Positions 22,368 through 52,121 are shown, counted from the first letter of the stretch. The stretch: 64,000 nt of DNA from Streptomyces sp. 3214.6 (GCF_900129855.1 NZ_LT670819.1:6324001-6388000); one strand, 5' to 3'. Made by a program: numbers and translations. Notes: generated from the letters alone by a model not told the origin.

Positions 22368-22478
22368 TCGCCGTGCCCGGTCCGCGTCCTCCGGCGGACT
22401 GTTCGGACGGCGGCGGTGACCCGGCGGGCCGCCGGACGGTTACTCCCACGGAGAACCGAACCGGACGAGGAGCACACC

Positions 22479-24351: not shown

Positions 24352-24630
24352 TTAGAGCGGTTGGAGGTGTGTCGTGACGAATTCGCTGAGGGTGGCGATG
24401 GACTGGAGGCTGTCCAGGCTCAGGTCCAGGGCGGCCACGTCGACGCCGTAGCGTTGGTCGATCGTGCCGAGCAGGGTCACACCGGCCAGCGAGGTGAGAC
24501 CGATCTGCGGGCCGAACAGGTCGGTGTCGGCGGGGAGTTCGGCGACGACCGCCTCGTCCAGACGGGCGGCCTCGGCGATCAGCGAACGGAGCTCCTGTTC
24601 CACCGTCGCCCGGTCTCGGGTCTGCGTCAC
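24352..24630 (-). CDS. Stand-alone acyl carrier protein
   Basis: This 92-aa carrier protein has the phosphopantetheine serine in IGLTSLAGV (about residue 47, usually DSL; here TSL) within a four-helix ACP pattern (DTDLFGPQ before, SIATLSEFVTTHL after). It is the last gene of a three-gene operon; GTG at 24630 overlaps the FkbH-like stop codon (GTGA). The PPTase encoded at 28210 probably activates it. FkbH-like enzymes typically load an ACP with a glyceryl-type unit, so this ACP may feed an acyl starter to the C-A-T NRPS. Confidence 0.85.
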   Translation of the reverse strand: MTQTRDRATVEQELRSLIAEAARLDEAVVAELPADTDLFGPQIGLTSLAGVTLLGTIDQRYGVDVAALDLSLDSLQSIATLSEFVTTHLQPL

Positions 24631-25697
24631 GCGTCGGCGTCCTCTCGGTCGGATACGTGCAGCCAGGCCGGCGGCGCCGGCAGGTCGCCGTGGAGGGTCC
24701 TGCCCAGGACCGCGGAATCGGCGTGGGCCGTATGGGTGTCGTCCGTGCGGCGCAGGCCCGCCTGGCGGAGCAGGATGCGCATCTCCAGGTTGGCGTCGGT
24801 CGGGCGCAGGGTCACCCGGAACTCCTCGGCGCCCGCCGCACGGGCCCGCTCCATCAGCCGGAACAGGAAGGCCGCCGCCGCGCCCCGGCCGGCGACCCGG
24901 CAGGACAGCGCGAGCAGCGGGATGGACCGGACGGCGGGGGCGGTGCGGTCGACGAGGGCGGCGCCGATGATGCCGTACGCGCCGAAACGGTCCGTCATGC
25001 GGGCCGTGTACAGCTCGTGTCCCGCCGAGGCGGCCAGCTCGCGCAGCCCGTCGGGGGTGAGGCCGGAGGAGTTCAGACGGTGGGTGCGGGCGGCGAGTTC
25101 CAGGGCGCGGGGGATCTCGTCGGGCGTGGCCAAGCCGACCGTGAGGCGCATGTCGCACCAGCGCAGGAACTCCTCGCGTGAGCCCTGGAAGCGCTCGCCC
25201 TCGGCCCGGCGGGTCTCCTCGGTGCGGTAGCGGTGCACGCGCTCACGGGACTCGGGGGTGACCTCCCGGCCCTCGAACGCGGCCGCCAGCGCGGGCACGT
25301 CCTCGGGGGCGAGGGTGCGCACACCCGGCAGCAGGGCCTCGACCTCGGCGCGCTCGTAGGGGGAGTCGTCGACCAGGACCAGGGCGTCCACCGCGATACC
25401 GAGGTCCTTCGCGATCCTGCGCAGCGACTCGCTCTTGTCCTGCCAGGACACCTGTGGGGCGAGGAAGCGCGCACGCAGCTCCGGTACGGCGTCCAGCCGG
25501 TCGAGCACCGACGGCGCGCTGCGGCTCGCGATGCTGCTGAGTACGCCGTGGGCGGCCAGCGCGTCGACCGCGGCGAGCATCCCGGGGCGGGGCGTGGGCA
25601 GCTCGTCGGTGGGGGACTCGACGGCGATCTCGTCCCACAGGGTGCCGTCGAGGTCCCATACGACGCACTTGACGCGGTCGGGGTCGAAGGCGGTCAC
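24627..25697 (-). CDS. FkbH-like HAD protein with GNAT-like C-terminus
   Basis: This 356-aa HAD-IIIC/FkbH-type protein has DLDGTLW at about 15-21 (nucleophile Asp), LVDDSPYERAEVEALLPGV near 132 and a C-terminal GNAT-like domain (about 190-340, FGAYGIIGAALVD). Canonical FkbH proteins dephosphorylate 1,3-bisphosphoglycerate and attach glycerate to an ACP. Here the Gly-Gly-Val segment after DLDGTLW and the Cys-Ser-Lys-Asn segment (here Ala-Ser-Arg-Ser) are not conserved, so the substrate may differ. GTG start at 25697 overlaps the upstream stop by four bases, and the ACP follows with the same arrangement. Confidence 0.78.
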   Translation of the reverse strand: MTAFDPDRVKCVVWDLDGTLWDEIAVESPTDELPTPRPGMLAAVDALAAHGVLSSIASRSAPSVLDRLDAVPELRARFLAPQVSWQDKSESLRRIAKDLGIAVDALVLVDDSPYERAEVEALLPGVRTLAPEDVPALAAAFEGREVTPESRERVHRYRTEETRRAEGERFQGSREEFLRWCDMRLTVGLATPDEIPRALELAARTHRLNSSGLTPDGLRELAASAGHELYTARMTDRFGAYGIIGAALVDRTAPAVRSIPLLALSCRVAGRGAAAAFLFRLMERARAAGAEEFRVTLRPTDANLEMRILLRQAGLRRTDDTHTAHADSAVLGRTLHGDLPAPPAWLHVSDREDADA

Positions 25698-27526
25698 CGG
25701 TCCCCCTCGGGCAGGAACAGCTTCATGGACAGGCTCGTGGGGTCGAAGCCGAACTTGCGGTAGACCGTGCGCATCGGGACGTTGCCCACATGCACCCGGC
25801 CGACGACCTCCGTGATGCCGTTCGTCAGGCAGAACTCCAGGCCCGCGGTGAGCAGGAGTTCCGCGACGTCACTGCGGTTGTCGACCGGGGAGACGGCCAG
25901 GGAGCGGAAGTTGGCGTAGCGGTCGCCGGTCATCGCGTTCTGGTTGATGCTCACCCAGCACCAGCCGACGGGCTCCTCGCCCGGACCGTGGGCGACGATC
26001 ATGCCCTCCTTCGACTTCTCCATGGCCCGGCCCAGCCGGGACGCCCACCGCTCGGGGTCGTCGATGGCGTCCTCACCGAAGGAGACCCGGGCGATCTCGG
26101 CCTCGAACCGCCCGATGGCCGGCAGATCACGCTCGTCGGCCTGACGGATGACGTACGGCCGCGCCCGCTCGGCGAGAGCGGCCCGGTCGGCGTCGGACGG
26201 CGCGTGCCAGCCGGGGGTGCGAGGGGCGGGAGCGGCGGCGGGAGCGGCGCTGGGAGTGGGGGCGGGCGTCCTGACGGGGGCGGTGGGGGCGGGGGCCGGG
26301 GTCGAAGGCTGCTGGGCCGCCGGGGGCGTCGGTTCGTCCGCCGGGACCAGGCGGCCCGGGCGGAAGGGGCCCTTGCCGCAGTTCGGGCAGCCGTCGGCGC
26401 GCAGGGCGGCGACCGAGGTCCAGCGGGCGCCGGGGCCGACGCGCAGCCGCGCCTCGCACGCCACGCACGTGTACTCGCGCTGCCGGGTCCGCTTGTCGCC
26501 GGTGTAGAGGGGGCCGCTGAACTCGCCCTCGTGGGAGGGGGCCGTCGAGGTGGTGGTGAGGAGGTGCTGGAAGAAGCCGACCCCGCCGAGGATGCCGCTG
26601 CCCTCGTACTCGTTGAAGTTGCGGATGTAGCCGTTGGTGACCAGGCCGAGCGCCATGATCTCCCGCTGCACCTCCAGCATCTCGTCCGGGCTCTTGCCGC
26701 CGAAGGAGAAGAAGACGCTGTGCGCGGGGCCGGGCCGCAGGCCCTCCACGGCACGGGAGAGGAAGAGCCGGGCGCCCTCGGGGGTGTACGGCGGGTCGGT
26801 CATGGCCACGTCGTGCTGCTGGTGCAGTTCGGCGGGCAGCGGCAGCCGCAGGTCGTGCCGGACCGTCTCCACACGGGTGCCGAGACCGGCCGACACCTTC
26901 TGGATGTAGTGGAGGATCTCCGGCGAGATGTCCACGACGGTGACCCGCTCGACGATCGGGGCGCCCAGCACGTCGCCCACCACGGCGACGGCGAGGGAGA
27001 CGAGGTCGTCGTCGCCGATCAGCAGCAGCGAGCCGCCCGGCAGCGCGCCCGCCGTGAGCAGCGCGAGCACCCGGCGCACCTTGGTCTCGGCCGTGCAGTG
27101 CGACTGGTCGATCGCCATGTCGGCGGCGGGGCCCGCCTCCATGAGCGCCCGCAGCCGCGGCACGGCCTCGTCCAGCACGTCGGGGACGACCAGCTCGCGC
27201 CCGTCACAGGTGCGGCAGGTGGCGTCGAGGGCGAGGTCCATGCCGAGCCGGGCGACGAGGTCCCGGCCGGTCTCCGTCAGCCGGGACGGACGCTCCTTGG
27301 TGACGAGGCCCCGGCGGCGCAGCTCGTTGCCCAGGGCCGCCACGATCGGGACGGGCAGGCCGGTCGCGCGGCTGAGGTCCTTCGTGGAGGCGGGAGCGAG
27401 GCGGCGCAGGGCGCGAAGGACCGACCGCACTCCGGGCGGGCCCTCCTGGAGCCGGACGGCGTCCGCGACTTCCGTGAGCACAGAATCGGCGGTGGTACTC
27501 CGAGGGTGCCGACGCGCGTTCGTCAC
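25694..27526 (-). CDS. BpsA-type aminopropyltransferase fused to a GNAT domain
   Basis: This 610-aa protein has several parts in order. A winged-helix-like N-terminus (about 10-85) is followed by a CxxC knuckle (CRTCDG). A Rossmann domain of the branched-chain polyamine synthase (BpsA/DUF43) family follows, with GDDDLVSLA near 170 and TDPPYTPEGARLFLSRA near 243. Next come a zinc ribbon (CVAC and CPNC near 370-395), an Ala/Pro linker, and a GNAT acetyltransferase (about 455-610). BpsA enzymes add aminopropyl groups from decarboxylated SAM to polyamines. A SpeD-like gene lies head to head. GTG at 27526 has GGAG eight bases upstream. The GNAT fusion suggests acetylation of the new amine; this is inference. 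Confidence 0.8.
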   Translation of the reverse strand: MTNARRHPRSTTADSVLTEVADAVRLQEGPPGVRSVLRALRRLAPASTKDLSRATGLPVPIVAALGNELRRRGLVTKERPSRLTETGRDLVARLGMDLALDATCRTCDGRELVVPDVLDEAVPRLRALMEAGPAADMAIDQSHCTAETKVRRVLALLTAGALPGGSLLLIGDDDLVSLAVAVVGDVLGAPIVERVTVVDISPEILHYIQKVSAGLGTRVETVRHDLRLPLPAELHQQHDVAMTDPPYTPEGARLFLSRAVEGLRPGPAHSVFFSFGGKSPDEMLEVQREIMALGLVTNGYIRNFNEYEGSGILGGVGFFQHLLTTTSTAPSHEGEFSGPLYTGDKRTRQREYTCVACEARLRVGPGARWTSVAALRADGCPNCGKGPFRPGRLVPADEPTPPAAQQPSTPAPAPTAPVRTPAPTPSAAPAAAPAPRTPGWHAPSDADRAALAERARPYVIRQADERDLPAIGRFEAEIARVSFGEDAIDDPERWASRLGRAMEKSKEGMIVAHGPGEEPVGWCWVSINQNAMTGDRYANFRSLAVSPVDNRSDVAELLLTAGLEFCLTNGITEVVGRVHVGNVPMRTVYRKFGFDPTSLSMKLFLPEGDR

Positions 27527-27796
27527 AATGCTGCTCCAGGCAAGCTGATTGATGGATTCCGGGACTATCGAGTATACGGGCTGGTGGGGAGCCGTCCGGA
27601 CCCGCTCGGGCGGCCGGGAAAGAGCGGGAATTCGGATGGAATTCCAGTGCATGAAAATAAATGCCGCGATATTCGTTCCGGAAGGCTTTTCCTAAAGGGT
27701 TTGCGTGCCGCGGTGCGGCCCGGATGCTACTCTGGGCACCACCGAGCGCCTATGTGAAAGGAGACGGGGGCAGCGGTTCGCCACCCCCGGTTCCCC
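27527..27796. promoter_or_regulatory. Divergent promoter region between the BpsA operon and the SpeD-like gene
   Basis: 270 bp, AT-richer at 27630-27710. It contains two ggaattc elements (27618-27639), a ttccggaa palindrome near 27677, and the structured leader of the SpeD-like gene. Both operons probably start here. Confidence 0.5.
27757..27788 (+). promoter_or_regulatory. Distant Shine-Dalgarno with a hairpin before the SpeD-like start
   Basis: A strong AAAGGAG (27757-27763) lies 33 bases before the ATG, and a GGGGG/CCCCC stem with an inner GC pair (27766-27788) fills most of the gap. Folding would bring the site to about ten bases from the start. No other ribosome site precedes this ATG. 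Confidence 0.45.
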
Positions 27797-28177
27797 ATGA
27801 CCAACTCCGCCAACCTCGCCACCGAGGGTATAAACGTCGACGATCTGTGCTCTTATGCCGTCGACGTATGGGTGAGCGACCACAGCATCCTGACCGACGA
27901 GGAGCGCCTCCTCCAGGTGCTGCGCACGGCCGCCGAAAAGGGAAACGCCACGGTGCTCGGTGAGGCGTCGCACGTTTTCCCGAACGGCGCTGTCACCGCG
28001 ATTCTCCTGCTTTCCGCCTCGCACCTGAGCATTCACACCTGGCCCGAATTCAGCCTGGCCAACGTGGATCTGCTCGCCTACGGCCGGCTGAACGGCGAGC
28101 GCATGATGCAGAGCGTCGAACTCGGCCTGTCGCCCACGCGCATCAACGTGACGCGCATGCTGCGCGCCGTGCACTGA
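27797..28177 (+). CDS. SpeD/SpeH-like pyruvoyl S-adenosylmethionine decarboxylase homologue
   Basis: This 126-aa protein is the size of class 1b AdoMet decarboxylases (self-cleaving, pyruvoyl-dependent). The cleavage region reads ASHLSIHTWPE, with the self-processing Ser at about 75 and the His retained. The preceding Glu of the usual ESH is Ala, and the proton-donor Cys (usual FTCG) is Tyr 95 (LLAYG). It may make decarboxylated SAM for the BpsA-like enzyme, or act on another amino acid, as some SpeD homologues have become arginine or ornithine decarboxylases. ATG at 27797 lacks a close ribosome site. It is followed 32 bases on by the PPTase gene. Confidence 0.8.
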   Translation: MTNSANLATEGINVDDLCSYAVDVWVSDHSILTDEERLLQVLRTAAEKGNATVLGEASHVFPNGAVTAILLLSASHLSIHTWPEFSLANVDLLAYGRLNGERMMQSVELGLSPTRINVTRMLRAVH

Positions 28178-28209
28178 CCGTTCCCTCCGCCAGTCCCCGG
28201 GCCGGTCTC

Positions 28210-28944
28210 GTGTTCTCCGTGCAAGTCTCGTGGGCGCGTCTCGGCGACGCCCACGAGGGCCTGCTGCGGCTGCTGGACCCCCGGGAGCGCGGCCGCCACG
28301 ACGCGACCGTCCGCCCCGACGACCGGGCCCGCTTCCTGGTCGGCTGCGCCCTGAGCCGGCTGCTGCTGGGCGAACTGCTCGGCGTGGCCCCGGCGGACGT
28401 GCCCCTGCGGCGCGTGTGCCCGCGCTGCGGCGGGCCGCACGGGAAGGCCCGGCTGGACGCCGCGGACCCGCCCGCGCCCTACGACTTCTCCGTCACCCAC
28501 AGCGGTGCGGTCATCGGCGTCGCCGTGTGCCGGGGCGGGCAGGTCGGCCTGGACGTCGAGGAGGACGGCACTCCCCTCGACGTCGACAGCGCGGCGCGGG
28601 CCGCTCTCTCCGACACCGAACTGGCCGCCCTGAACGCCCTGCCCCCGGCCGAGCGGCGGCCCGCCTTCCTGCGCGTCTGGACCCGAAAGGAAGCCGTCCT
28701 GAAGGCCCTCGGCGTGGGCCTCACCGTGTCGCCGCGCGAGCTGGAGGTGTCGGCGCCCGGCCTGCCACCGGCCGTGCTCACCTGGCCCGACCGGCCGGCC
28801 GTCGTCCGGCCCGAAGCGGGCCTCGCGGACCTGGTCGTCGCCGGGAGGCATCCCGCGGCGGTGGCCGTCACGGGGGCGGGCGCGAGCCGGGTGCGCGTCG
28901 AGCAGCGCGAGCGGTCCGGCCTGGTGGCCGGGTACGGCAGCTGA
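28210..28944 (+). CDS. Sfp-type 4'-phosphopantetheinyl transferase
   Basis: This 244-aa enzyme adds the phosphopantetheine arm to carrier domains. Motifs: PYDFSVTHSG (about 95-104), VGLDVEE (about 113-119, Mg-binding acids), and WTRKEAVLKALG (about 157-168). The length and W-x-x-K-E-A motif are those of the broad-specificity Sfp class. GTG start at 28210. It is probably cotranscribed with the SpeD-like gene and should activate the ACP and both T domains of this cluster. An internal CPRCGG pair is present, as in some relatives. Confidence 0.92.
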   Translation: MFSVQVSWARLGDAHEGLLRLLDPRERGRHDATVRPDDRARFLVGCALSRLLLGELLGVAPADVPLRRVCPRCGGPHGKARLDAADPPAPYDFSVTHSGAVIGVAVCRGGQVGLDVEEDGTPLDVDSAARAALSDTELAALNALPPAERRPAFLRVWTRKEAVLKALGVGLTVSPRELEVSAPGLPPAVLTWPDRPAVVRPEAGLADLVVAGRHPAAVAVTGAGASRVRVEQRERSGLVAGYGS

Positions 28945-28973
28945 CCCGCACGACGCCTCCGCCCTCGTGCGGG
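28945..28973. terminator. Hairpin between convergent PPTase and MFS genes
   Basis: Perfect 9-bp inverted repeat (28945-28953 with 28965-28973) filling the gap between convergent operons. Confidence 0.75.
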
Positions 28974-28982
28974 CCGCCGTCC

Positions 28983-30302
28983 TCACGCCGCGGCTACGGC
29001 GCCGTCCTCGGGACCCGTCGGCATCGTGCGCAGTCTGCCCACCGGGGACAGGATGATCGGGACGAGCATCGCCGCGGAGACCACGCCCGCGATCCACAGG
29101 GCGCCGTGCAGTCCCGCCACCGCCGCCAGCAGACCGCCCACGGGACCGCCCAGCGCACCGCCGCCGTACAGGAGCATGCGCATCGCCGCCGTCATCCGGC
29201 CCATCAGGGCCTGCGGGGTGATGGTCTGACGCAGGCTCACGATGAGGACGTTCGAGACGCTGCTGCCGAAGTACTCCAGGAAGAACGAGGCGACGAACAG
29301 GATCATCAGCATCCAGCGGGGACCCGTCGCCGCCGGGATCAGCAGCGGACCCAGGAAGATGATCGAGACCGACACCTGGTAGGCACGGCCCACCGTCAGC
29401 CGGCGCACCACCATCCCGGACACCAGCGCGCCCAGCAGACCCCCCACGGCCGCCGCGCCCATGACGAAGCCGACCGCGGCCGCCGACAGGTCCTTGTCGC
29501 GCACGGCGTACAGCAGGAACAGCGACTGCACCATCGTCAGCAGGAAGTTGCAGGAGCAGCCGACGAGCCCGATCGCGCGCAGCCAGCGGTTGCCGAACAC
29601 CCAGCGCAGGCCCTCGGCGAGTTCGGCCCGCAGCGGCCGCTTCTCGCGAGGCGTCTCCGGGGCGGGCTCGGGGGTTCTGATGATCAGCAGGGAGAGCACC
29701 GACACCGCGTAGGAGAAGGCGTTGGCGGTCATCGCGAAGGGCGCCGAGAACGCGCTCACCAGCGTGCCGGCCACCCCCGGCCCGGCGATGTCCGCCGACG
29801 ACAGCGTGGCGTTGAGCTTGGTGTTGGCCTCCAGCAGACTGCGCCGGTCCTTCACCAGCACCGGGACGTACGACATCCAGCTGACGTCGAAGAGCACCGA
29901 CGCCACCCCGACGCCCAGCGCCAGCGCGTACAGCAGCGGCAGGGTCAGCAGGTCGACGTGGTAGAGGACCGGGACCAGGCCGATCAGCACCATCCGCACC
30001 AGGTTGGCGCCCAGCATCACCGGCCGCTTGCGCACCCGGTCCACCCACACGCCGAACAGCAGAGCCAGCCCCAGGAACGGCACCAGCTGCGTGAACCGCA
30101 GCAGCCCGAGCTGCTCGGCCCCCACGTCGAAGACCAGTACCGCGGTGAGCGGAAGCGCGAGGTTGGTGATCTGGGTGCCGTACAGGGAGAGCGCCTCGCC
30201 CGTCCAGAACACCATGAAGTCCCGGTGGTGCCAGAGCGAGCGGGGCGGACTGTCCGGCTCGGCCTCGGCGACCGTCTCGGCGTGGGTGCCGTGCTCCGTC
30301 AT
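28983..30302 (-). CDS. Major facilitator superfamily exporter
   Basis: This 439-aa protein has about 12 membrane helices and looks like the EntS/macrolide-efflux MFS type (LWHHRDFMVFWTGEALSLYGTQITNLALPL at the first helix, GVWVDRVRKRPVML at the 2-3 loop). It is the last gene of the main NRPS operon; ATG at 30302 overlaps the thioesterase stop codon. Likely exports the product or provides self-resistance. Confidence 0.88.
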   Translation of the reverse strand: MTEHGTHAETVAEAEPDSPPRSLWHHRDFMVFWTGEALSLYGTQITNLALPLTAVLVFDVGAEQLGLLRFTQLVPFLGLALLFGVWVDRVRKRPVMLGANLVRMVLIGLVPVLYHVDLLTLPLLYALALGVGVASVLFDVSWMSYVPVLVKDRRSLLEANTKLNATLSSADIAGPGVAGTLVSAFSAPFAMTANAFSYAVSVLSLLIIRTPEPAPETPREKRPLRAELAEGLRWVFGNRWLRAIGLVGCSCNFLLTMVQSLFLLYAVRDKDLSAAAVGFVMGAAAVGGLLGALVSGMVVRRLTVGRAYQVSVSIIFLGPLLIPAATGPRWMLMILFVASFFLEYFGSSVSNVLIVSLRQTITPQALMGRMTAAMRMLLYGGGALGGPVGGLLAAVAGLHGALWIAGVVSAAMLVPIILSPVGRLRTMPTGPEDGAVAAA

Positions 30303-31114
30303 TCTGGCGTCGCCTCTCGTAGGGCCTGGTCGACGATGGCGCTGATGGCGGTCAGCCCGGGCTCCTGCCACACGGAGTGGTGGTCGCCGGGCACGGTGTG
30401 CTCGGTCAGCCTGCTCAGCCTGGGACGCCAGTCGAGCAGTCGCTCCTGAGACTCCGCGGCCTTGATCAGGATCGCGGGCCCGTCGTGGACCGACGCCACC
30501 GAATGCTGCCGCAGGGCCACGACATGCGTGCGGAAGAGGGCGTAGCGCTCCAGCAGGAACTCCGCGTCGAACTCCTCGGGCACGACCCCGTCGCGCTCCA
30601 CCACCTCGAAGATCTCGGCCGGCTCCGCCCCCGGCCGCATGCCTGCCAGGGCGGTGTCGACGCCGGGCGCCCGGTCCCGGGTCACGCCGAGGAAGTCGTA
30701 CAGGAAGTAGCGGGCGAGCTGGTCCTCGGGCGGCACCTGTTGGGTGCCGGGCAGTGCCGCGTCGACCATGACGAGCACGGGCACCTCTTCGCCCGCGGCG
30801 GCCAGCAGTCGCGCCATCTCGTAGGCGACGACCCCGCCGAGCGACCAGCCGAGCAGCAGGTACGGGCCGTGCGGGCGGGCCGCTCGCAGGGCGGCCGTGT
30901 GCAGCTCGGCCAGCTCCTGGATGGAGCGGGCGGGTTCGGAGACGCCGTCGAAGCCGGGTGCCTCGAAGCCGAACACGGGGCGTTCGGGGTCCAGTTGATG
31001 GGTCAGGCCCGCATAGCAGTAGGGCGAGCCGGAGACCGGATGGACGCAGTACAGAGGGGGCAGGCCACCCGCCGCGCGGAGGGGGACGATGCTGTTGACG
31101 GAGAGTTCGGTCAC
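30299..31114 (-). CDS. Stand-alone thioesterase
   Basis: This 271-aa alpha/beta hydrolase has the catalytic Ser in GWSLGG (Ser about 91), an Asp after VLVMVDA, and the His in PGDHHSVW near the end. Its sequence resembles NRPS C-terminal (type I) thioesterase domains more than the type II editing enzymes (for example PLYCVHPVSGSPYCYAGL). Neither NRPS here ends in a TE, so this enzyme is the best candidate for product release. GTG at 31114 overlaps the A-T NRPS stop by four bases. Confidence 0.85.
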   Translation of the reverse strand: MTELSVNSIVPLRAAGGLPPLYCVHPVSGSPYCYAGLTHQLDPERPVFGFEAPGFDGVSEPARSIQELAELHTAALRAARPHGPYLLLGWSLGGVVAYEMARLLAAAGEEVPVLVMVDAALPGTQQVPPEDQLARYFLYDFLGVTRDRAPGVDTALAGMRPGAEPAEIFEVVERDGVVPEEFDAEFLLERYALFRTHVVALRQHSVASVHDGPAILIKAAESQERLLDWRPRLSRLTEHTVPGDHHSVWQEPGLTAISAIVDQALREATPE

Positions 31115-33612: not shown

Positions 33613-35087
33613 GGCCTCTCTCCTGGGGCGAGGGCGGGGACGTCGGCCGTGGGGACGGCGGCTCCGAAGGGCAGCGGATGGATGTGGCACAGGGCGGCCA
33701 CCTCGGCCCGCACCCGGTCGCGCACGGCCGGGTCGGTGCGGAACTCGGTGTCCGACAGCACGGTGGTGGCGCTGAGCACCTCGTGCAGGAGACCGGCGCA
33801 GACCCGCATCTCGGCGGGCCCCATGCCGCGCTGCGCCAGGACGTTCGTGCCGAGCCGCAGGCCGCCGGCGACCAGCGGGGGCTTGTCGTCGCCGGGGATG
33901 CGGTTGCGGTTCGTGAGGATTCCGCAGTCCTCAAGGGCTCGTTCGGCGACCACGCCGGTCATGCCGCGCCCGGCCATGTCCAGCAGCACCATGTGGTTGT
34001 CGGTGCCGCCGGTCAGGACCCGGTGGCCGAGCCCCGCCAGATCGCCGGCGAGGGCCGCGGCGTCGTCGACGACCAGCCGCATGGTCTCCTTGAACGCCGG
34101 TTCCGCCACCGCCTTCAGGGCGTGCGCCTTGGCGGCGATCGAGGCCGGGCTCGGGGTGCCCTGCGACTGGGGGAAGACCGCGCGCTGCATCAGCCGGTCG
34201 AGAGGGGTGCGGCCGTCCGGGCCCGGGGTGCGGTGCTCCCGTCCGATGAGGATCAGGCCCCCGCGCGGGCCGCCCAGCTGCTTGTAGGTGCTGGTGGTGG
34301 TGATGTGGGCGAGGTCGATGGGGCTGGGGTGTTCGCCGGCGGCCACCAGACCGGCGATGTGCGAGATGTCGGCGACCAGAAACGCCCCGACGGAGTCCGC
34401 GATCGCCCGGAACCTGACGAAGTCGAGCGTCCGTGGATAGGCGCTGGCCCCCGCGATGACCACGGTGGGGCGGTGGACCCGGGCCAGTTCGGCCGCCTGG
34501 TCGTAGTCGACGAACCCACGCTCGTCCAGGCCGTAGTGGACCGCCCGGTAGTGGCGCCCGGTCACCGAGGCCGAGGACCCGTGGGTGAGATGGCCCCCGG
34601 CGTCCAGGTCAAGGGCGAGCAGGGCGCCGCCCGGGGGCAGTAACGCGGCCAGCACGGCCTGGTTCGCCGAGGAGCAGGAGTGCGGCTGGACGTTGGCGTA
34701 GCGGGCGCCGAAGGCCTGCCGGGCCCGGTCGGCGGCCAGCCGCTCCACCCCGTCGAAGCGGCTCGCGCCGGGGTGGTAGCGGGCCCCCGGATAGCCCTCG
34801 GCCGTCACGTTCGACAGCGCGGCACCGCCCGTGGCCAGGACCGACGGGCTCGCGACGCTGGCGGACGCCACCATCGCCAGCGTCGCGGTCTGCTCCTCCA
34901 CCTCCCGGTCGAGCAACCCGGCCAGCTCGGGATCGGTCCGGGTCAACAGCTCCGCGCCCCGCCGCAGCAGCAGAGCCTGCGCGGAGCCGGAGCCGGAGCC
35001 GGAGCCGGAGTCGGTGCCGGGGGCGGTGTTGGGGCCGTTCTGTTGACGGCCCGGGGCCGCGGTCGCGGCCCGCGGGGTCTCAAGCAT
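33609..35087 (-). CDS. Serine hydroxymethyltransferase-like PLP enzyme
   Basis: This 492-aa fold-type I enzyme has the PLP lysine at about 269 in TTTSTYKQLGGPRGG. Housekeeping SHMT has His before Thr/Lys at the Tyr position. It keeps LRLGTN (carboxylate-binding Arg), AEGYPGARYHPG and SANQAVLAALLPPG. The extra 35 N-terminal residues include a Gly-Ser run. Secondary SHMTs in biosynthetic clusters can make beta-hydroxy or alpha-methyl amino acids by aldol chemistry. An in-frame TTA codon lies at 34641-34643. ATG at 35087 overlaps the C-A-T NRPS end by eight bases. Confidence 0.87.
   Translation of the reverse strand: MLETPRAATAAPGRQQNGPNTAPGTDSGSGSGSGSAQALLLRRGAELLTRTDPELAGLLDREVEEQTATLAMVASASVASPSVLATGGAALSNVTAEGYPGARYHPGASRFDGVERLAADRARQAFGARYANVQPHSCSSANQAVLAALLPPGGALLALDLDAGGHLTHGSSASVTGRHYRAVHYGLDERGFVDYDQAAELARVHRPTVVIAGASAYPRTLDFVRFRAIADSVGAFLVADISHIAGLVAAGEHPSPIDLAHITTTSTYKQLGGPRGGLILIGREHRTPGPDGRTPLDRLMQRAVFPQSQGTPSPASIAAKAHALKAVAEPAFKETMRLVVDDAAALAGDLAGLGHRVLTGGTDNHMVLLDMAGRGMTGVVAERALEDCGILTNRNRIPGDDKPPLVAGGLRLGTNVLAQRGMGPAEMRVCAGLLHEVLSATTVLSDTEFRTDPAVRDRVRAEVAALCHIHPLPFGAAVPTADVPALAPGERP
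34641..34643 (-). promoter_or_regulatory. TTA codon (bldA-dependent) in the SHMT-like gene
   Basis: In-frame TTA at codon 149 (frame checked from the ATG at 35087) within AALLPPG. It is the only TTA I saw in the NRPS operon. In Streptomyces such codons commonly delay secondary-metabolite expression until bldA tRNA is charged. Confidence 0.85.
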
Positions 35088-38000
35088 GCGTACCCGCCGC
35101 CTTCTTGGCCTGCGTCAGCCCGTCGACGGCCGAGGCGATGGTGGCGACCGTGGCCCCGCCGTACAGCAGACGGACGTTGACCTTGACGCCGAAGTGCTTG
35201 TTCAGCCGACTCACCACCCGCATCGCCTGCAGCGAGTTGCCACCCAGCTCGAAGAAGCTGCCGTCCGCTCCGACCTGCTCCATGGACAGCACGGCGCCGA
35301 AGACCTCGGCCACCTTCTCCTCCGTGGCGGTCCCCGGGGCGACAAAACTCGCCGCGCCGTCCGTCGCGGACACCGGAGCGGGCAGCGCGCTCCGGTTGAT
35401 CTTGCGGGCCGGGGTCAGCGGGAACTCCGCCAGCTCCACCCAGGCCGTGGGCACCATGTACTCGGGCATCGTGCGACCCAGGTGCTCGCGCAGCTCGGCC
35501 ACGGTCGGCGAGGCGTCACCGAGCACCGTGTAGTAGGCGACGAGCTGCTTCTCCCCGCCGTCCTCCCGCAGCAGCACCAGAGCCATACGGATCTTCGGGT
35601 GCGTCAGCAGCCCCGACTCGATCTCGCCGAGCTCGATCCGCAGCCCGCGCAGCTTCACCTGGTTGTCCAGGCGGCCGATGAAGTCGATCTGCAGATCGCG
35701 CGTCCAACGCACCAGGTCACCCGTGCGGTACACCCGGCCCTCGCCCAGGAACGGGTCGGGGACGAACTTCTCGTCCGTCATCTCCGGCAGGTTCAGATAG
35801 CCGCGGGCCAGGCCCTCGTCGCCGCCGATCAGCAGCTCGCCCGGCACACCGACCGGCACCAGGTTGAAGTCCTTGTCGACCACGTAGTGCAGCCGGCTGA
35901 ACTCGGGCCGGCCGATGGGCGGCGACGACAGCCACTCCTTGTGCTCGCACAGGTATTCGGTGGTCGCCACCGATGCCTCGGTCGGACCGTAGAGGTTCAC
36001 GAACTTGCGGCCCGGCAGGTTCCACTTGTTGACCAGCTCGGCCGGCAGGGCCTCCGCACCGCCCATGATGTACTTCAGATCCGGGTACGGCCCCGCCTCG
36101 ACCACGGAGAGGATCGCCGGCGACAGACCGGCGTACGTGACCCGCTGGTCCCGGATCAGCGCGCCCAGGGACTCAGGCGAGGAGGCGTCCTCCGGCGCCA
36201 CCAGCACCATCGCCGAACCGCTGATCAGACCGGCGAAGATCTCACCCTGAGACATGTCGAAGGTCAGCGCCGGCAGCTGCAGCAGCCGGTCCTCGTGGGT
36301 CCACTCGCCGAAGCTGCGCCGGTAGGCCTCGATGAACATGCGCAGACCGCGCTGCTCGATCATCACGCCCTTGGGACGCCCGGTCGAGCCCGAGGTGTAG
36401 AGGACGTACACCAGCGACGTCGGCTCCGCCCACTCCTCCAGCGGCACGTCGTCCGACTGCGCCTCGATGACGTCCCAGTCGGCGTCGATCCGCAGGCTCT
36501 CCCAGCCGCAACTGTCCGGCAGATCGCCCAGCGCGGCCTGCCGCGTGATGACCAGCGGTGTTGCGGTGTCCCGCAGCATGTGGTCCAGCCGGGCGTTGGG
36601 GTGCGAGGGGTCGATGATCGTGTACGCGGCGCCGGACACCATCACGCCCAGGATCGCCACCAGGGCGTCCAGGTCGCGGTCCATTGCGATGGCCACGACC
36701 TGCTCGCGGCCCACGCCCCGGGAGCGGATGTACCGGGCGAGCTTCCCGGCCCGCCGCATCAGCTCGCCGTACGTCATCTCCACCCCGCGGCAGACCGCCG
36801 CGACCAGCTCCGGGTGCTCCTCGGCGATCCGCGCGATCGTCGCGTGGACCGGCTCCGTCGGGTACTCGAAGTCGGGGCCGCGTCCGACCGCGAGCAGTTC
36901 CTCGCGCTCGGCTCCGGACAGCAGCGGCAGCGCGGAGACCGGGGTGTCCGGGGCGTCCGCCGCGGCCGCGAGCACGGTCTCGAAGTGCCGGACCAGGGCC
37001 TCGACGCGCCAACGGTCGTACAGGTCGGTCGCGAACTCGACGATCAGCCGCAGCCGTTCGGCGCCCTCGACGAAGCTGAAGGACACATCGAACCGGGAGC
37101 GCGTCCCCGCCACCGTGATCGTCTCGGCCGTCAGGCCCGCCAGCTGGAACGCGTCGCCGGTGGTCGTCTCGCCGAGCAGCTGGCAGGCGATCTGGAACAG
37201 CGGGTTGCGGCCCGCGTCCCGGACCGGCTGCACCCGGTCCACGATACGGTCGAACGGCACGTCCTGGTTGTCGTACATGTCGAGGTTGGCGTCGGTGATG
37301 CGCTCCAGCAGCTCGGCGAAGGTGACCCCGCCGGACAGGTCGGACCGCAACACCGTCATGTTGATGAACAGGCCTACGACGTCCTCGAGTTCGGGGTCCG
37401 TACGGCCGAGCATGGGCACCCCGAGGGCGATGTCGTCCTGGCCGCTGTACCGGCTCAGCACGACGTTCAGTGCCGCGGCGACCACCATGTACAGGGACGC
37501 GCCCTGCTCCTGCGCCAAGGCACGTGCCTTGGTGAGCAGTTCGGTGGGGAAGTCGACTACGAAGGTCTCGCCGCTCTGGGTGGGCTCCGCGGGCCGCAGC
37601 CGGTCGGCGGGCAGTTCGAGCGCCTCCAGGCCGGCCAGCCGCTCCTGCCAGAACTTGAGCTCCTCCTCCCAGACACCGTCGGCCTGCTGCCGACGCTGCT
37701 CCTGGACGTGGTCGCCGTAGCCGACCGTCAGCTCCGGGAGCGCGGGCGTGCGGCCCGCCGTCAGGTCCCCGTAGGCCTGGGAGATCTCACGGCTGATCAC
37801 ACCGCCGGACCAGCCGTCGGTGACGATGTGATGGAAGCCGAGGCAGAGCACATGGTGGTCGGCGGCCAGCCGGAACAGCAGGAACCGGGAGAGGGGCCCC
37901 GCCGTCAGGTCGAACGGCGTGTCGGCCTCGGTCTGCAGCGCCTCGCGCAGCGCGCTCTCCGCGTCTTCGGGGTCCGGCCGGGAGAGGTCGCGAAGCGGCA

Positions 38001-38259
38001 GCGGCCGGTCCTGCGCCGGTGCGACGACCTGGTAGGGCACACCGTCCGCCGAGTGGAAGGTCACCCGCAGCTGCTCGTGGCGCGCCACCAGCACGTTGAG
38101 GGCCTGCTCCAGCGCGGGCACGTCCAGCGGACCGCGCAGCCGGTAGGCCTGGATGACGTTGTAGGTGGTCTCCCCGGGACTCATCTGGTCCAGGAACCAC
38201 AACTGCTCCTGCCCGAAGGACAGTTGGATGCGTGACTCGTCGGGGAGCGAGGCGCTCAT
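35080..38259 (-). CDS. Nonribosomal peptide synthetase, C-A-T module
   Basis: This 1059-aa protein has a condensation domain (about 10-440; HHIVTDGWS near 140), an adenylation domain (about 460-960; LYTSGSTGRPKG, NLYGPTEAS, GRLDNQVKLRGLRIELGEIE) and a T domain (Ser about 1009, LGGNSLQAM). No epimerisation or TE domain. I read specificity positions as D-M-G-G-I-G-L-V-A-K, which matches no code I know. The upstream C domain needs a donor from another carrier, either the free ACP or the A-T protein. ATG at 38259 chosen; a GTG two codons earlier (38265) is possible, with GGAG in front of both. SHMT-like gene overlaps its end. Confidence 0.93.
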   Translation of the reverse strand: MSASLPDESRIQLSFGQEQLWFLDQMSPGETTYNVIQAYRLRGPLDVPALEQALNVLVARHEQLRVTFHSADGVPYQVVAPAQDRPLPLRDLSRPDPEDAESALREALQTEADTPFDLTAGPLSRFLLFRLAADHHVLCLGFHHIVTDGWSGGVISREISQAYGDLTAGRTPALPELTVGYGDHVQEQRRQQADGVWEEELKFWQERLAGLEALELPADRLRPAEPTQSGETFVVDFPTELLTKARALAQEQGASLYMVVAAALNVVLSRYSGQDDIALGVPMLGRTDPELEDVVGLFINMTVLRSDLSGGVTFAELLERITDANLDMYDNQDVPFDRIVDRVQPVRDAGRNPLFQIACQLLGETTTGDAFQLAGLTAETITVAGTRSRFDVSFSFVEGAERLRLIVEFATDLYDRWRVEALVRHFETVLAAAADAPDTPVSALPLLSGAEREELLAVGRGPDFEYPTEPVHATIARIAEEHPELVAAVCRGVEMTYGELMRRAGKLARYIRSRGVGREQVVAIAMDRDLDALVAILGVMVSGAAYTIIDPSHPNARLDHMLRDTATPLVITRQAALGDLPDSCGWESLRIDADWDVIEAQSDDVPLEEWAEPTSLVYVLYTSGSTGRPKGVMIEQRGLRMFIEAYRRSFGEWTHEDRLLQLPALTFDMSQGEIFAGLISGSAMVLVAPEDASSPESLGALIRDQRVTYAGLSPAILSVVEAGPYPDLKYIMGGAEALPAELVNKWNLPGRKFVNLYGPTEASVATTEYLCEHKEWLSSPPIGRPEFSRLHYVVDKDFNLVPVGVPGELLIGGDEGLARGYLNLPEMTDEKFVPDPFLGEGRVYRTGDLVRWTRDLQIDFIGRLDNQVKLRGLRIELGEIESGLLTHPKIRMALVLLREDGGEKQLVAYYTVLGDASPTVAELREHLGRTMPEYMVPTAWVELAEFPLTPARKINRSALPAPVSATDGAASFVAPGTATEEKVAEVFGAVLSMEQVGADGSFFELGGNSLQAMRVVSRLNKHFGVKVNVRLLYGGATVATIASAVDGLTQAKKAAGTHA

Positions 38260-38319
38260 CGTCACAGGACTCCAATCGGCTGTACACGGTGGTGTTCCAA
38301 CGGGGGCGTTACGGGGACG

Positions 38320-39426
38320 TCAGTGGTTCGGGGGCGGTGCAGTCGTGCGGGCGTCGGGCCTGAGGACGCTCTCCACGCGGCGCAGTCCTTCGGTCACCGC
38401 CTCGGGTGAGCGCGCGAAACAGATCCGGAAACCGTCGCTGGCGCCGAGGGTCTCGCCGGGCATCAGCAGAACGCCCAGGTCCAGCGCCCGGCGGCACATC
38501 GCCAGCGGCTCCTCCCCGGTCCGGAGCCAGAGCCAGGCGAACGGCGTGCCCTCCGGTTCCACGAGCTCCACCGCGTCCGCGTTGCGCCGGGCGAACTCCC
38601 TGACCAGGGACAACCCCTGCCCGGTGAGTTCGTGATAGGACCGCAGATGGCGCTCACGGTCGGCCAGCACCTCACGGGCCAGCGTCTCGCACAGCACCGA
38701 ATTGGAGATGGTGGACAGGAACTTGCGCTCGGCACAGCCCGCCACCACGGACGGCGGACCGTACAGCCAGCCCACCCGCAGCCCCGGGAAGCCGTACACC
38801 TTGGACAGGCTGGACACGGAGATCACCCGGTCGCCGTCGAGCGCGGCGGAGCGGGACAGATCGAGCGCGTACTCCTCGTCGAGCAGCAGACGAGCGCCCG
38901 TGCGCGAGGCGAGGGCCACCAGGGCGCGCAGGTCCCGCTCGGCTATGCGCCGACCGGTCGGATTGCACGGGCTGTTGGCCACGATCAGCTTCACGTCGGG
39001 CCCGGCGACGGCCTCGGCGGCCTCGACGTCGAAGCTCAGATCCGGGCGGAACCCGACGAGATCGACCCGGCAGCCGAGCGCGGCCGGCACGTCCCAGGAC
39101 TGCTGCCAGCCCGGCCGGAAACCGATCACCCGGTCCCCGGGGCTCAGCAGCGACGCGTACACGAGGTAGAGGGCCTGTTGGGCGCCCTGGGTGATGAGGA
39201 CCGAGTCGGGCGACCCGCCGTAGAGTTCCGCCACCGCCTCGCGCAGCGCGCCCAGGCCGTGGTCGTGGCCGTAGTCCAGCTCCAGGCCGGCCGGCAGGGT
39301 GAGGTCGTCGAGGTGTCCGGGGAGCATGTTGCTGTCGCCGAGGTCGATGTCGAAGCGCCCCGCGGCGTCCTCGAACACCCACCGCTGCATCGGATAGTCG
39401 CGGGCGCGCTCGACGGAGACGGTCAC
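38320..39426 (-). CDS. PLP-dependent aminotransferase, class I/II
   Basis: This 368-aa fold-type I enzyme has the PLP lysine at about 209 in SLSKVYGFPGLRVGW. NSPCNPTG and LLLDEEYALDLS hold the cofactor ring and pyridine nitrogen. QGAQQALYLVYASLL lies at the phosphate-binding region. Could supply a nonproteinogenic amino acid or catalyse beta/gamma-replacement, as do capreomycidine-synthase-like relatives. GTG at 39426 overlaps the DapF-like stop by four bases (GTGA). The gap to the NRPS start is 60 bases. Confidence 0.87.
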   Translation of the reverse strand: MTVSVERARDYPMQRWVFEDAAGRFDIDLGDSNMLPGHLDDLTLPAGLELDYGHDHGLGALREAVAELYGGSPDSVLITQGAQQALYLVYASLLSPGDRVIGFRPGWQQSWDVPAALGCRVDLVGFRPDLSFDVEAAEAVAGPDVKLIVANSPCNPTGRRIAERDLRALVALASRTGARLLLDEEYALDLSRSAALDGDRVISVSSLSKVYGFPGLRVGWLYGPPSVVAGCAERKFLSTISNSVLCETLAREVLADRERHLRSYHELTGQGLSLVREFARRNADAVELVEPEGTPFAWLWLRTGEEPLAMCRRALDLGVLLMPGETLGASDGFRICFARSPEAVTEGLRRVESVLRPDARTTAPPPNH

Positions 39427-40355
39427 AACGCCGCCCCGGCCGTCGCGGCTCTGGCCCCGGTCGCCGTCGCCAGCAGGCCGAGCCTGGCGCGCAGCGCGGG
39501 CGCGAAGGCGCCGACGGCCACCTGCTCGGCGTCTCCGGTCATGGTGACCCGGCCGTCCGCCCCGACGCTGATCTCCACACTGCCCCCCGGCATCCTGACC
39601 TCCACCCGCTCGTCGCACAGTCCGAGTTCACGCGCCGCGGAGGCCGCGGCACAGGCGCTGCTCCCGGACGCCGTCACATAACCGGCGCCCCGCTCGAAGA
39701 CCTCCAGCTCCATGACGTTCCGGCCCGCCATGCGCGCGAACTGCACATTGGTGGCCTGGGGGAAACGGGGGTGCCGGGCGATCTTCGGTCCGAGCAGGCG
39801 GGCCAGCCGCGCAGTCGGGTCGTCCACCAGCACCACGGTATGCGGGTTGCCGTTGTACACACAGGTGACGATCAGCCGATCCCCGTCCACCGTCAGCGGC
39901 ACGGACACCGCCCGGCCGCGGTACGGCGTGTCGTCCTCGTCGAGCAGCGGCAGATCGGCCGCGTCGAAGCTGGGGCGGCCCATGCCGACCTCCACGCGGC
40001 CCGCGGCGGCGTCGAGGATCCGCACCGGACACTCGCCCGCGGCCGTACGCAGCGTGAACTCCCGCCCGTCCGCCCAGCCGCCGGGCTCCTGCGCGGCCAG
40101 GTGCAGGGCGAACATCCGCAGTCCGTTGCCGCTGCGGCCGCAGTCGGAACCGTCGGAGTTGTACAGGGCGAGCGGCACCGGCGACCCGGCGCGGGGCTCC
40201 TCCAGCGGCCCGTACAGCACACCGTCCGCCCCGATCCCCCGGTGCCGGTCGCAGACCAGCCGGATCGTCTCGGGGCTGACGGTGAAATCGGTGTGGCGCG
40301 GATCGATCACCAGGTAGTCGTTGCCCGCCGCCTGGTACTTGAAGAAGTCGGTCAC
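39423..40355 (-). CDS. Diaminopimelate epimerase-fold protein with both catalytic Cys replaced by Ser
   Basis: This 310-aa protein aligns along DapF: FKYQAAGNDYLV at the start, NSDGSDCGRSGNGLR (about 66-80), YNGNPHTVVLVDD and ERGAGYVTASGSSAC (about 221-235). DapF uses two cysteines as acid and base (in MCGNG and ACGSG motifs); here they are Ser 75 and Ser 230, both confirmed in the DNA. So it is unlikely to be an ordinary thiol-based DAP epimerase and may isomerise, eliminate or racemise a different amino acid. GTG at 40355 is preceded by GGAGGGAG. Confidence 0.85.
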   Translation of the reverse strand: MTDFFKYQAAGNDYLVIDPRHTDFTVSPETIRLVCDRHRGIGADGVLYGPLEEPRAGSPVPLALYNSDGSDCGRSGNGLRMFALHLAAQEPGGWADGREFTLRTAAGECPVRILDAAAGRVEVGMGRPSFDAADLPLLDEDDTPYRGRAVSVPLTVDGDRLIVTCVYNGNPHTVVLVDDPTARLARLLGPKIARHPRFPQATNVQFARMAGRNVMELEVFERGAGYVTASGSSACAAASAARELGLCDERVEVRMPGGSVEISVGADGRVTMTGDAEQVAVGAFAPALRARLGLLATATGARAATAGAAL

Positions 40356-40438
40356 GGCTGGTCTCCCTCCGCTGCTGGGCGCGGCGGAGCGCCGGGGCGT
40401 CGCGTCATGACGGCCCCGGGGCTCCACGGCGTTCCGGT

Positions 40439-41125
40439 CTACTTCTCGGCGAGCGCGGCGGCGTCGTGCTCCTCGCCGTACCACTTCTCCGCCCACCGCG
40501 AGAACGCGACGATGACGATGTCCCGGTGGCCCGGGCCGCCGTCGGCGGAGAGCACGTCGGTGACGTCGTGGGAGAGCGCCCGGTCGTCCAGCAGGACCGC
40601 CTGACCCGGTTCGAGCGTGCCCGTCCAGAAGGGCTGGTCGGCCCCCTCGTGCCACAGGCGCGTGGTGCCGCCGGCCACGTTCACCTTGTTGAGGATCGCG
40701 ATCATCACGAACTCGTGCCCGTCGTGGTGCACGCCCTCCGGGGTGAGCGGGCCCGGCTTGCCGCCGTCCGCACGGGTCCGGTTCTGGTGGACGTTGATCT
40801 GCCAGTCCTCGGACCGGTCGAGGCCGAGTTCGCGGATGCCCGCCTCGATAAGCGGCGTGAAGTCCACCTTGATCGGCTCGTAGACCCGGCGGATGCCGCC
40901 GCCGACCGAGTTGAACTTCTTGTACGTCGTGTAGTCCCGGTGCGCGAGCCGCTCGAACGACCACGCCTGGTCGCCCTGCGGGCTGAGCCGGTACTGGGAG
41001 AACCGTTTGAAGCGGGTGCCGTTGCCCATGTACTCGTCGACCGGGCAGTCGTCGTAGCTGGGCAGGATGTCGGGCGAGACATCCGGCAGGTCGATGATGA
41101 CGAACCCTTCACTGCCGAGCGGCAT
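40439..41125 (-). CDS. 2-oxoglutarate/Fe(II) dioxygenase, PF10014-like
   Basis: This 228-aa cupin-fold oxygenase has a likely iron-binding HxD in VHHDGHEF (about 130-137), the distal His in ALSHDVTDV (about 190), and the 2OG-binding Arg in HRDIVIVAFSRW. KRFSQYRLSP and KKFNSVGGG match the amino-acid dioxygenases of the isoleucine-4-hydroxylase group. It probably hydroxylates a free amino acid building block. ATG at 41125 follows GGAGG. It sits 34 bases after the diiron enzyme gene. Confidence 0.85.
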   Translation of the reverse strand: MPLGSEGFVIIDLPDVSPDILPSYDDCPVDEYMGNGTRFKRFSQYRLSPQGDQAWSFERLAHRDYTTYKKFNSVGGGIRRVYEPIKVDFTPLIEAGIRELGLDRSEDWQINVHQNRTRADGGKPGPLTPEGVHHDGHEFVMIAILNKVNVAGGTTRLWHEGADQPFWTGTLEPGQAVLLDDRALSHDVTDVLSADGGPGHRDIVIVAFSRWAEKWYGEEHDAAALAEK

Positions 41126-41159
41126 GTTCTGTCCTCCAGACGGAGTGGATGGTGGGGCG

Positions 41160-42203
41160 TCAGGCGGCGGACGGCATGCGCTCGTCCAGGTATGCGGCGG
41201 AGGAGTTGAGCCGCCACAGGATGCCGCGCGCGATGGCGCGGCGCATGTGCGCCGATTCGGCGGCGGGCAGCACCACGTTGTGGAACCATCCCTGGGCGTG
41301 CTGGGAATCGATGGTGATGTGCAGCCGGTGGTAGGTGATGCCCACCTCCGGCAGCCCGAGGCGCTCCCAGGCGTGCACGACCTGGACGAACCGGTCCGGA
41401 GCCATCCACTCGGTCATCCCCAGGAAGCCCACGGCCTCCGGGTACAGCGAGCGGTAGCGGCACAGCATGACCGCGAGGTTCCCGTTGAGCAGCGAGGTGG
41501 CGGTGAGCGAGCGCTCCAGCTCCTCCTCCGAGATCTCGAAGACCTCGAAGATCTTGTTGAAGAGGGTGGTGTGGACCTCGGCGGGCTTGCCGTTGCCCAT
41601 CTCGTCCCAGAAGTTGGAGGCGATCTCCAGCTTGGCCTCGCCGGCGGTGCCCACCTGCATCAGCGCCAGCAGGTCGTCGAAGCGGCCGTCGACCACCGAC
41701 TCCTGCATCACGTAGTTGCGCAGGTCGCTCTCGGTCGCCGTGTTGCGGATGAACTCGTGGTAGTAGGGGTGCTTGTACACCCGGTGGCCACGCGCCATCT
41801 GCTTCAGCCAGGACAGGTACTCACGCGGGTCCGTGGGAGCCTCGTCGAGCAGGGCCGGATCGATGAGCCGGTCCTGGGCCTCGGCGGTGGCGGTCTCCAG
41901 CAGCCGGCCTATCTCATAGACGGCGACGGAACCCTCGGCGTTCTCACCCTGCGGGATCTTGGTGTGCAACTGGTAGATGCGGTCGAGCAGATACTGCTGC
42001 GCGTACAGGGCGCTTCGATCGCCCAGGGCAGCGGCTCTGTTGATGTCGGCGACCTCGCCCAGGACGCGGTCCCGCTCGCTGCCCGACAGGACGGAGTCGA
42101 CCTTCCCGGGTGCGGAACCGAGCCATGCGCCGATCGTGTCCACCGTGGACAGGAACGGGTCACCGGTTGCCGCCCGACCCTTGGCGCTGCCGACTTGTGG
42201 CAT
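41160..42203 (-). CDS. Heme-oxygenase-like diiron oxidase (iron-containing redox enzyme family)
   Basis: This 347-aa helical protein is of the Haem_oxygenas_2/HDO type. Candidate iron ligands: Glu in YVMQESVVDG, Glu/Asp in LEIASNFWDEMGNG, His in PAEVHTTLF and the His/Asp set in HRLHITIDSQH near 315. HDO enzymes do N-oxygenation, C-C cleavage or desaturation of amino acids. ATG at 42203 has GGGG six bases upstream; longer in-frame starts lack sites. It is the first gene of the nine-gene NRPS operon and is adjacent to the 2OG oxygenase, suggesting sequential oxidation of one amino acid. Confidence 0.82.
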   Translation of the reverse strand: MPQVGSAKGRAATGDPFLSTVDTIGAWLGSAPGKVDSVLSGSERDRVLGEVADINRAAALGDRSALYAQQYLLDRIYQLHTKIPQGENAEGSVAVYEIGRLLETATAEAQDRLIDPALLDEAPTDPREYLSWLKQMARGHRVYKHPYYHEFIRNTATESDLRNYVMQESVVDGRFDDLLALMQVGTAGEAKLEIASNFWDEMGNGKPAEVHTTLFNKIFEVFEISEEELERSLTATSLLNGNLAVMLCRYRSLYPEAVGFLGMTEWMAPDRFVQVVHAWERLGLPEVGITYHRLHITIDSQHAQGWFHNVVLPAAESAHMRRAIARGILWRLNSSAAYLDERMPSAA

Positions 42204-52039: not shown

Positions 52040-52048
52040 GGAGACTTG

Positions 52049-52121
52049 CGCCCCCGGCAGGACTCGAACCTGCGGCCAAGCGCTTAGAAGGCGCCTGCTC
52101 TATCCACTGAGCTACGGGGGC
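52049..52121 (-). tRNA. tRNA-Arg, anticodon TCT
   Basis: 73-nt cloverleaf: acceptor GCCCCCG with CGGGGGC and discriminator G, D-arm GCTC/GAGC, anticodon stem GGCGC/GCGCT with loop CTTCTAA (anticodon TCT, reads AGA), and T-arm GCAGG-TTCGAGT-CCTGC. CCA is not encoded. It reads the rare AGA codon and abuts integrase debris. Confidence 0.95.

Follow-up and report, generated by a model that had tools for sequence, protein, structure and literature searches.

Do the biosynthetic genes that lie between positions 24352 and 42311 of a 64,000-nucleotide stretch of the Streptomyces sp. 3214.6 genome (NZ_LT670819.1:6324001-6388000, hereafter the window) form one pathway or two? A sequence-only reading had taken them for a single hybrid cluster that couples peptide assembly by a nonribosomal peptide synthetase (NRPS) with aminopropyl chemistry. 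Every gene that it named is present, and the family assignments hold against Pfam and NCBIfam. The region is read here as two units (Table 1). Unit A (28983-42311) lies entirely on the minus strand and runs from a haem-oxygenase-like diiron N-oxygenase (HDO) through a 2-oxoglutarate (2OG) oxygenase, a DapF-like protein, a GntC/VioD-like pyridoxal phosphate (PLP) enzyme, an NRPS protein with condensation, adenylation and thiolation domains (C-A-T), a serine hydroxymethyltransferase-like (SHMT-like) enzyme, a second NRPS protein (A-T) and a thioesterase (TE) to an exporter of the major facilitator superfamily (MFS). Unit B (24352-28944) encodes a phosphopantetheinyl transferase (PPTase), a SpeD-like protein, a BpsA-GNAT fusion, FkbH and an acyl carrier protein (ACP); here the minus strand carries BpsA-GNAT, FkbH and the ACP (27652 down to 24352), and the plus strand SpeD and the PPTase. 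We consider it probable that the units are two independent, adjacent pathways, unit A for a peptide containing 3-(2-nitrocyclopropyl)alanine (Ncpa) and unit B a separately conserved operon.

The distribution of the two gene sets carries this conclusion. With the 2OG enzyme as query, 249 Streptomycetaceae genomes were searched and 20 kb was read at each close match. The full nine-gene order of unit A was present without unit B in five loci (L037, L038, L039, L041, and L042), and a reduced form, in the same order but lacking the SHMT-like and A-T genes, in two (L040 and L043). A search with a fragment of HrmI added L139, which has both units, and L143 and L144, which have unit A but showed no unit B over the sequence read; L143 and L144 bring the further Streptomyces loci that have full unit A without unit B to seven. 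Genes of the BpsA (PF01861) and SpeD (PF02675) families were absent from all eight whole genomes searched for them, namely the five with full unit A, the two with the reduced form and one with the cassette only. BpsA relatives were also collected phylum-wide by family. Nineteen named Streptomyces genomes contain relatives of BpsA-GNAT, surrounded in nearly all by the PPTase, SpeD, FkbH, and ACP genes, and 18 of these genomes have unit B without unit A, the exception being Streptomyces sp. yr375 (L060). Co-occurrence of the gene sets beyond one lineage, which a single hybrid cluster would lead one to expect, was not seen, and the proposal that one cluster joins the two chemistries thus gives way to units that occur separately across genomes.

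The junction between the units is consistent with this. The MFS and PPTase genes are convergent, with stop codons 38 bp apart. In four genomes without unit A (L062, L066, L075, and L099), the PPTase gene is separated from a tRNA-Arg(TCT) gene by 38, 65, 39, and 262 bp, respectively; in the window this gap is 23,104 bp, and the genes past the tRNA are syntenic. Therefore, unit A is carried in a 23-kb inserted segment between the PPTase gene of unit B and the tRNA-Arg gene. A repeat of the tRNA-Arg 3' end, as expected of an attachment site, was sought at the opposite border of the inserted segment and not found, and a scan of inserted genes showed no integrase.

What would unit A make? The HDO, whose start is likely the ATG at 42302, has HrmI as its sole close match in the PDB (E = 1e-66, about 44% identity), and its match to BesC is weak (3e-5). 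The adjoining 2OG enzyme shares 86% identity with a crystallised protein, PDB 8jms, which is itself 99% identical to the 2OG enzyme of L039, a locus that has the whole of unit A but lacks unit B. All 16 relatives read retain the HxD metal motif. BelK and HrmI convert L-lysine to L-6-nitronorleucine, which BelL and HrmJ cyclise to Ncpa, and the two pathways share a trio of BelK/HrmI, BelL/HrmJ, and BelM/HrmT, with belM and hrmT encoding DapF homologues (PMC10764440). ScBelL of S. cavourensis, the crystal structure of which has been solved, yields (1'R,2'S)-Ncpa (PMC10764440). The window holds all three elements: a HrmI/BelK-type diiron N-oxygenase, an adjoining BelL/HrmJ-type 2OG enzyme, and a DapF homologue in the same operon. 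By homology, this trio is the known Ncpa cassette, in which the HDO is predicted to convert L-lysine to L-6-nitronorleucine and the 2OG enzyme to form Ncpa, probably as the cis (1'R,2'S) form. Hormaomycin clusters were also sought with the HrmI fragment for an examination of HrmT, and the best match was just 59% identical. In six loci (L136, L137, L140, L141, L142, and L145), a HrmI-like diiron enzyme stands beside an adenylation-domain protein with no 2OG cyclopropanase nearby, and these are possibly clusters that use nitronorleucine.

Together with the PLP enzyme, the trio forms a four-gene cassette that also occurs without an NRPS. It accompanies ATP-grasp ligases in L047 and L049, while in L044 no assembly enzyme was recognised nearby. 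The first cassette genes are found with other partners in L045, in L138, and on two plasmids, one from Streptomyces sp. NBC_01216 and one from Agrobacterium vitis; in L045 and the two plasmids, a molybdopterin reductase is among these partners. Since the cassette recurs with ATP-grasp ligases, with no recognised assembly enzyme nearby, or with different partners, its distribution supports a role as the maker of a building block. The A. vitis copy (L147, plasmid pRvVAT039a), from a plant-associated host, is a belactosin-like set that comprises an HDO, a 2OG enzyme, DapF, a molybdopterin reductase, and an aldo/keto reductase.

Two cassette proteins depart from their nearest families. Twenty-two cassette DapF homologues, that of the window and 21 others from loci within the series L037-L051 and L135-L147, were aligned to the housekeeping DapF of the same genome, which has Cys at both of the catalytic positions (which we take to be Cys73 and Cys217 in Haemophilus influenzae numbering). 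Ser occupies both positions in 21 of the 22, including the window, and L050 has Asn and Ser. These Cys-less proteins range from Streptomyces to the A. vitis plasmid copy, which lies beside a belN-like reductase. Judged by these residues, the cassette protein, though of DapF fold, does not qualify as a diaminopimelate epimerase. It has been suggested that the cassette DapF homologue supplies lysine (PMC10764440); this role is weakened because both catalytic cysteines are replaced. The PLP enzyme, which is present in most cassettes and carries the PLP-lysine motif SLSKVYG, scores 206 of 415 bits with GntC and 176 of 391 bits with VioD, both under the equivalog cut-offs, and is placed with this group. 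Divergent from unit A, a PPOX/PNPOx-type flavoprotein is encoded at 42579-43649 on the plus strand; homologues of it follow the MFS gene immediately in L040 and at a distance of a few kb in L039, L041, and L042, and it could be a nitro reductase.

Assembly appears to involve two residues. The adenylation-domain codes, read by hand, are DMGGIGLVAK in the C-A-T protein and DMYNLGLIHK in the A-T protein, the final K being the usual invariant lysine rather than a residue separately read, and both are near-constant among relatives. The A-T code falls in a Cys/Ser-like group, together with Cys-type (BmdB, 7ly7) and 7emy domains, and before its adenylation domain the A-T protein has what looks like a remnant of the C-terminal part of a condensation domain. 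In the SHMT-like enzyme, the His beside the PLP lysine is replaced by Tyr (STYK) in 10 of 10 cluster copies, while THK is found in the remaining SHMT-family proteins of this genome, so that the cluster enzyme alone has Tyr. The SHMT-like and A-T genes are jointly absent from L040 and L043, and L043 has a nearby adenylation domain with a serine-type code; it is therefore most likely that the residue loaded by the A-T protein is serine-like and comes from the SHMT-like enzyme; it would be of the serine or alpha-methylserine type. The C-A-T protein would load Ncpa or a product that the PLP enzyme may form from it, the condensation domain would couple both residues, the TE would free the dipeptide, and the MFS protein would export it. 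A TE-released dipeptide would be the simplest product of unit A, its order and residues following from these predictions. The earlier proposal of a dipeptide-sized product with an oxidised amino acid appears right.

Unit B poses a different question, that of what its SpeD and BpsA homologues do in a mesophile. SpeD keeps the pyruvoyl Ser63 and His68 of class 1b enzymes, and its predicted fold matches the S-adenosylmethionine decarboxylase (AdoMetDC) of T. maritima at 1.4 Å. In every Streptomyces orthologue checked (about 20), Cys83 is replaced by Tyr and Glu62 by Ala, and the TIGR03330 score of 74.0 is just below the cut-off of 75.65. In PMC10407285, Cys83 is described as essential for processing and catalysis and is kept in all groups. 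The unit B protein keeps the Pro that this study gives as AdoMetDC-like but lacks Cys83, and activity as an ornithine or arginine decarboxylase is a conceivable alternative. The protein is 92-100% identical across Streptomyces. It is the only SpeD of the genome, which favours a role as donor supplier for BpsA. In another actinobacterial family (L095), a SpeD with Tyr and Gln at the Cys83 and Glu62 positions overlaps a BpsA without GNAT in a two-gene unit. In L085, L086, and L088, from small (about 1.5 Mb) actinobacterial genomes, a canonical SpeD with Glu62 and Cys83 adjoins a canonical BpsA.

BpsA-GNAT matches BpsA in the PDB at 1e-31, and its GDDD motif, of which Asp159 and Asp160 have been tied to decarboxylated S-adenosylmethionine (SAM) in a 2026 review (PMC12979288), is invariant. 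The acidic C-terminal tail that serves as aminopropyl carrier is absent, and a CxxC/CPxC stretch and the GNAT domain are found instead. The structure model is weak (mean pLDDT 65) and supports the BpsA fold only. BpsA was also sought on plasmids and not found. The FkbH protein scores over the TIGR01686 cut-off with a conserved DLDGT motif, and its gene overlaps that of the ACP, in which GLTSL is conserved; glyceryl loading is predicted for this pair. The PPTase accompanies unit B in nearly all loci. The variant SpeD would supply decarboxylated SAM or a similar donor, BpsA would aminopropylate an amine, and the fused GNAT would acylate the aminopropylated amine, perhaps with a C3 acyl group from the ACP, which FkbH would load and the PPTase activate. 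It is the presence of FkbH, ACP, and PPTase that suggests that the GNAT draws on a C3 acyl-ACP.

The gene boundaries bear out the tight operons described earlier, with overlaps in seven gene pairs: SHMT/C-A-T by 8 bases, and DapF/PLP enzyme, SHMT/A-T, A-T/TE, TE/MFS, BpsA/FkbH, and FkbH/ACP by 4 bases. The HDO gene had been ended at 42203 and in fact extends to about 42302-42311. A MelC1/tyrosinase pair beside unit B had gone unmentioned; it is syntenic in most unit B loci and was not found in L067.

Table 1. Features of the locus, in window coordinates.
Feature	Coordinates	Strand	Placement	Family matches and remarks
HDO, haem-oxygenase-like diiron N-oxygenase (HrmI/BelK-like)	41160..42311	-	unit A	PF14518, 1e-39; predicted L-Lys to L-6-nitronorleucine
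Fe/2OG nitroalkane cyclopropanase, BelL/HrmJ family (predicted)	40439..41125	-	unit A	PF10014, 4e-48; 86% to PDB 8jms; HxD motif
DapF-fold protein, BelM/HrmT equivalent	39423..40355	-	unit A	TIGR00652, 1e-56; both catalytic Cys replaced by Ser
Fold-type I PLP enzyme, GntC/VioD group (predicted)	38320..39426	-	unit A	class I/II aminotransferase match
NRPS C-A-PCP (PCP, peptidyl carrier protein)	35080..38265	-	unit A	PF00668, PF00501, PF00550
SHMT-like enzyme, STYK	33609..35087	-	unit A	PF00464, 3e-119
NRPS A-PCP with apparent partial C-domain remnant	31111..33612	-	unit A	alternative GTG start at 33690
Free-standing thioesterase	30299..31114	-	unit A	PF00975, 1e-26
MFS exporter, EntS-like	28983..30302	-	unit A	TIGR00900; conserved final gene of unit A
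Sfp-type 4'-phosphopantetheinyl transferase	28210..28944	+	unit B	PF01648
SpeD-like protein	27797..28177	+	unit B	AdoMet_dc PF02675, 6e-23
BpsA-like aminopropyltransferase, CxxC/CPxC stretch, linker, GNAT	25694..27652	-	unit B	BpsA_C PF01861, 1e-38; GNAT, 4e-5
FkbH, HAD, DLDGT motif	24627..25697	-	unit B	TIGR01686, 2e-51
Acyl carrier protein, Ser motif GLTSL	24352..24630	-	unit B	NCBIfam ACP matches
MelC1 and tyrosinase pair	22416..23814	+	neighbour of unit B	PF06236, PF00264
tRNA-Arg(TCT)	52048..52121	-	far side of inserted segment	

Other readings of the locus deserve to be weighed. In a single hybrid cluster, the peptide would be capped with an aminopropyl or polyamine group, and adjacency, the shared orientation of most genes, and a junction kept in three related genomes could all be cited in its favour; however, unit A occurs in genomes without any BpsA or SpeD, unit B is far commoner without unit A, and near-empty sites exist at the junction, and we hold this reading to be highly improbable. 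A milder version, in which the pathways are separate but unit B was recently recruited here to decorate the unit A dipeptide, for instance by FkbH, ACP, and GNAT acylating its free amine, draws on the co-retention of both units in three genomes and on the need of both for a PPTase that only unit B encodes. Recruitment nevertheless left no lineage-specific gene gain or loss, as the gene sets match those of genomes with unit A only and with unit B only, and it seems to us quite unlikely. Several points do weigh against two independent pathways with the chemistry proposed here. The units are adjacent in three genomes (the window, L060, and L139), whose DNA identity of about 87-94% is similar in both halves and thus fits one common event better than several separate associations; the units were probably already side by side in a common ancestor and have not parted since, and a weak functional link between them, such as a shared PPTase, is still conceivable. 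That 8jms is ScBelL is probable and has been inferred, as the name is not given in the PDB table, and no match links either adenylation-domain code to a characterised Ncpa domain. The acceptor, acyl group, and product proposed for unit B are guesses.

The chemistry within each unit can also be read differently. Unit A might make no Ncpa at all, with the 2OG enzyme hydroxylating lysine or 6-nitronorleucine and the GntC/VioD-like enzyme cyclising the product, as in guanitoxin and viomycin. Such a route would agree with the best scores of the PLP enzyme, since GntC and VioD act on hydroxylated arginine, and with its company with this BelL subgroup in most loci. The scores are, however, well under the cut-offs, and the close relative of the 2OG enzyme, probably ScBelL, has been reported to cyclopropanate 6-nitronorleucine (PMC10764440), which leaves this route unlikely. 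Unit B, for its part, may make an acylated polyamine that the cell itself uses in stress or nucleic-acid binding, like the branched polyamines of thermophiles. The lack of an exporter in unit B, the near-identity of SpeD across Streptomyces, and the bare SpeD-BpsA pair of L095 all favour such a role, whereas the ACP, FkbH, and Sfp-type PPTase, as typical secondary-metabolism proteins, point the other way; we regard own use as a real possibility, although we lean against it. Returning to two independent pathways, a bolder elaboration would place two unrecognised enzyme activities here: the DapF homologue of every nitrocyclopropane cassette, rather than being an epimerase for lysine supply, would be a Cys-free catalyst whose substrate is either the nitro amino acid or the cyclopropane and which, jointly with the PLP enzyme, converts Ncpa to a further residue, and unit B would be a mesophilic acyl-polyamine pathway with a SpeD that does without Cys83; taken as a whole, this is offered only tentatively.

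These results correct a plausible merger of two neighbouring clusters, an error that automated cluster callers may make likewise, and give each unit a testable role. The locus had been described as unrecognised. This holds in that neither unit, nor a product of unit A, nor any cluster with the exact gene set was found described in searchable papers; it does not hold for the chemistry, since unit A varies known Ncpa chemistry in a new way. Nitrocyclopropane amino acids are rare, and an NRPS cluster for one, compact with its nine genes and present in about ten Streptomyces loci, offers a practical target for product discovery. The Ser-for-Cys replacement in the cassette DapF runs counter to the published suggestion of lysine supply (PMC10764440), and a BpsA-based operon in mesophilic Streptomyces runs counter to the description of BpsA as confined to thermophiles (PMC12979288).

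How do the two units compare with known systems? Like the hormaomycin (HrmI-HrmJ-HrmT) and belactosin (BelK-BelL-BelM-BelN) cassettes, unit A keeps N-oxygenase, cyclopropanase, and DapF homologue together, but its GntC/VioD-like PLP enzyme is extra and no BelN-type reductase was found in it. Assembly differs as well, unit A having the small C-A-T and A-T proteins, hormaomycin an NRPS of its own, and belactosin ATP-grasp ligases. Another close system is the L039 cluster, whose 8jms-like enzyme is probably ScBelL of Streptomyces cavourensis and whose nine-gene order is identical to that of unit A, with no unit B; no paper naming its product was found. The PLP cyclases GntC (guanitoxin) and VioD (viomycin) are the best curated-family matches of the unit A PLP enzyme, the substrate of which would bear a nitro group or cyclopropane rather than being hydroxyarginine. 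With class 1b SpeD and its ornithine and arginine decarboxylase offshoots (PMC10407285), the unit B protein shares fold, Ser63, His68, and the AdoMetDC-type Pro, and it differs in the Tyr at Cys83. Finally, unit B BpsA has the GDDD and DPP-T motifs in common with the branched-chain polyamine synthase BpsA of thermophiles, but its host is a mesophilic Streptomyces and the acidic carrier region has been exchanged for the CxxC/CPxC stretch and GNAT.

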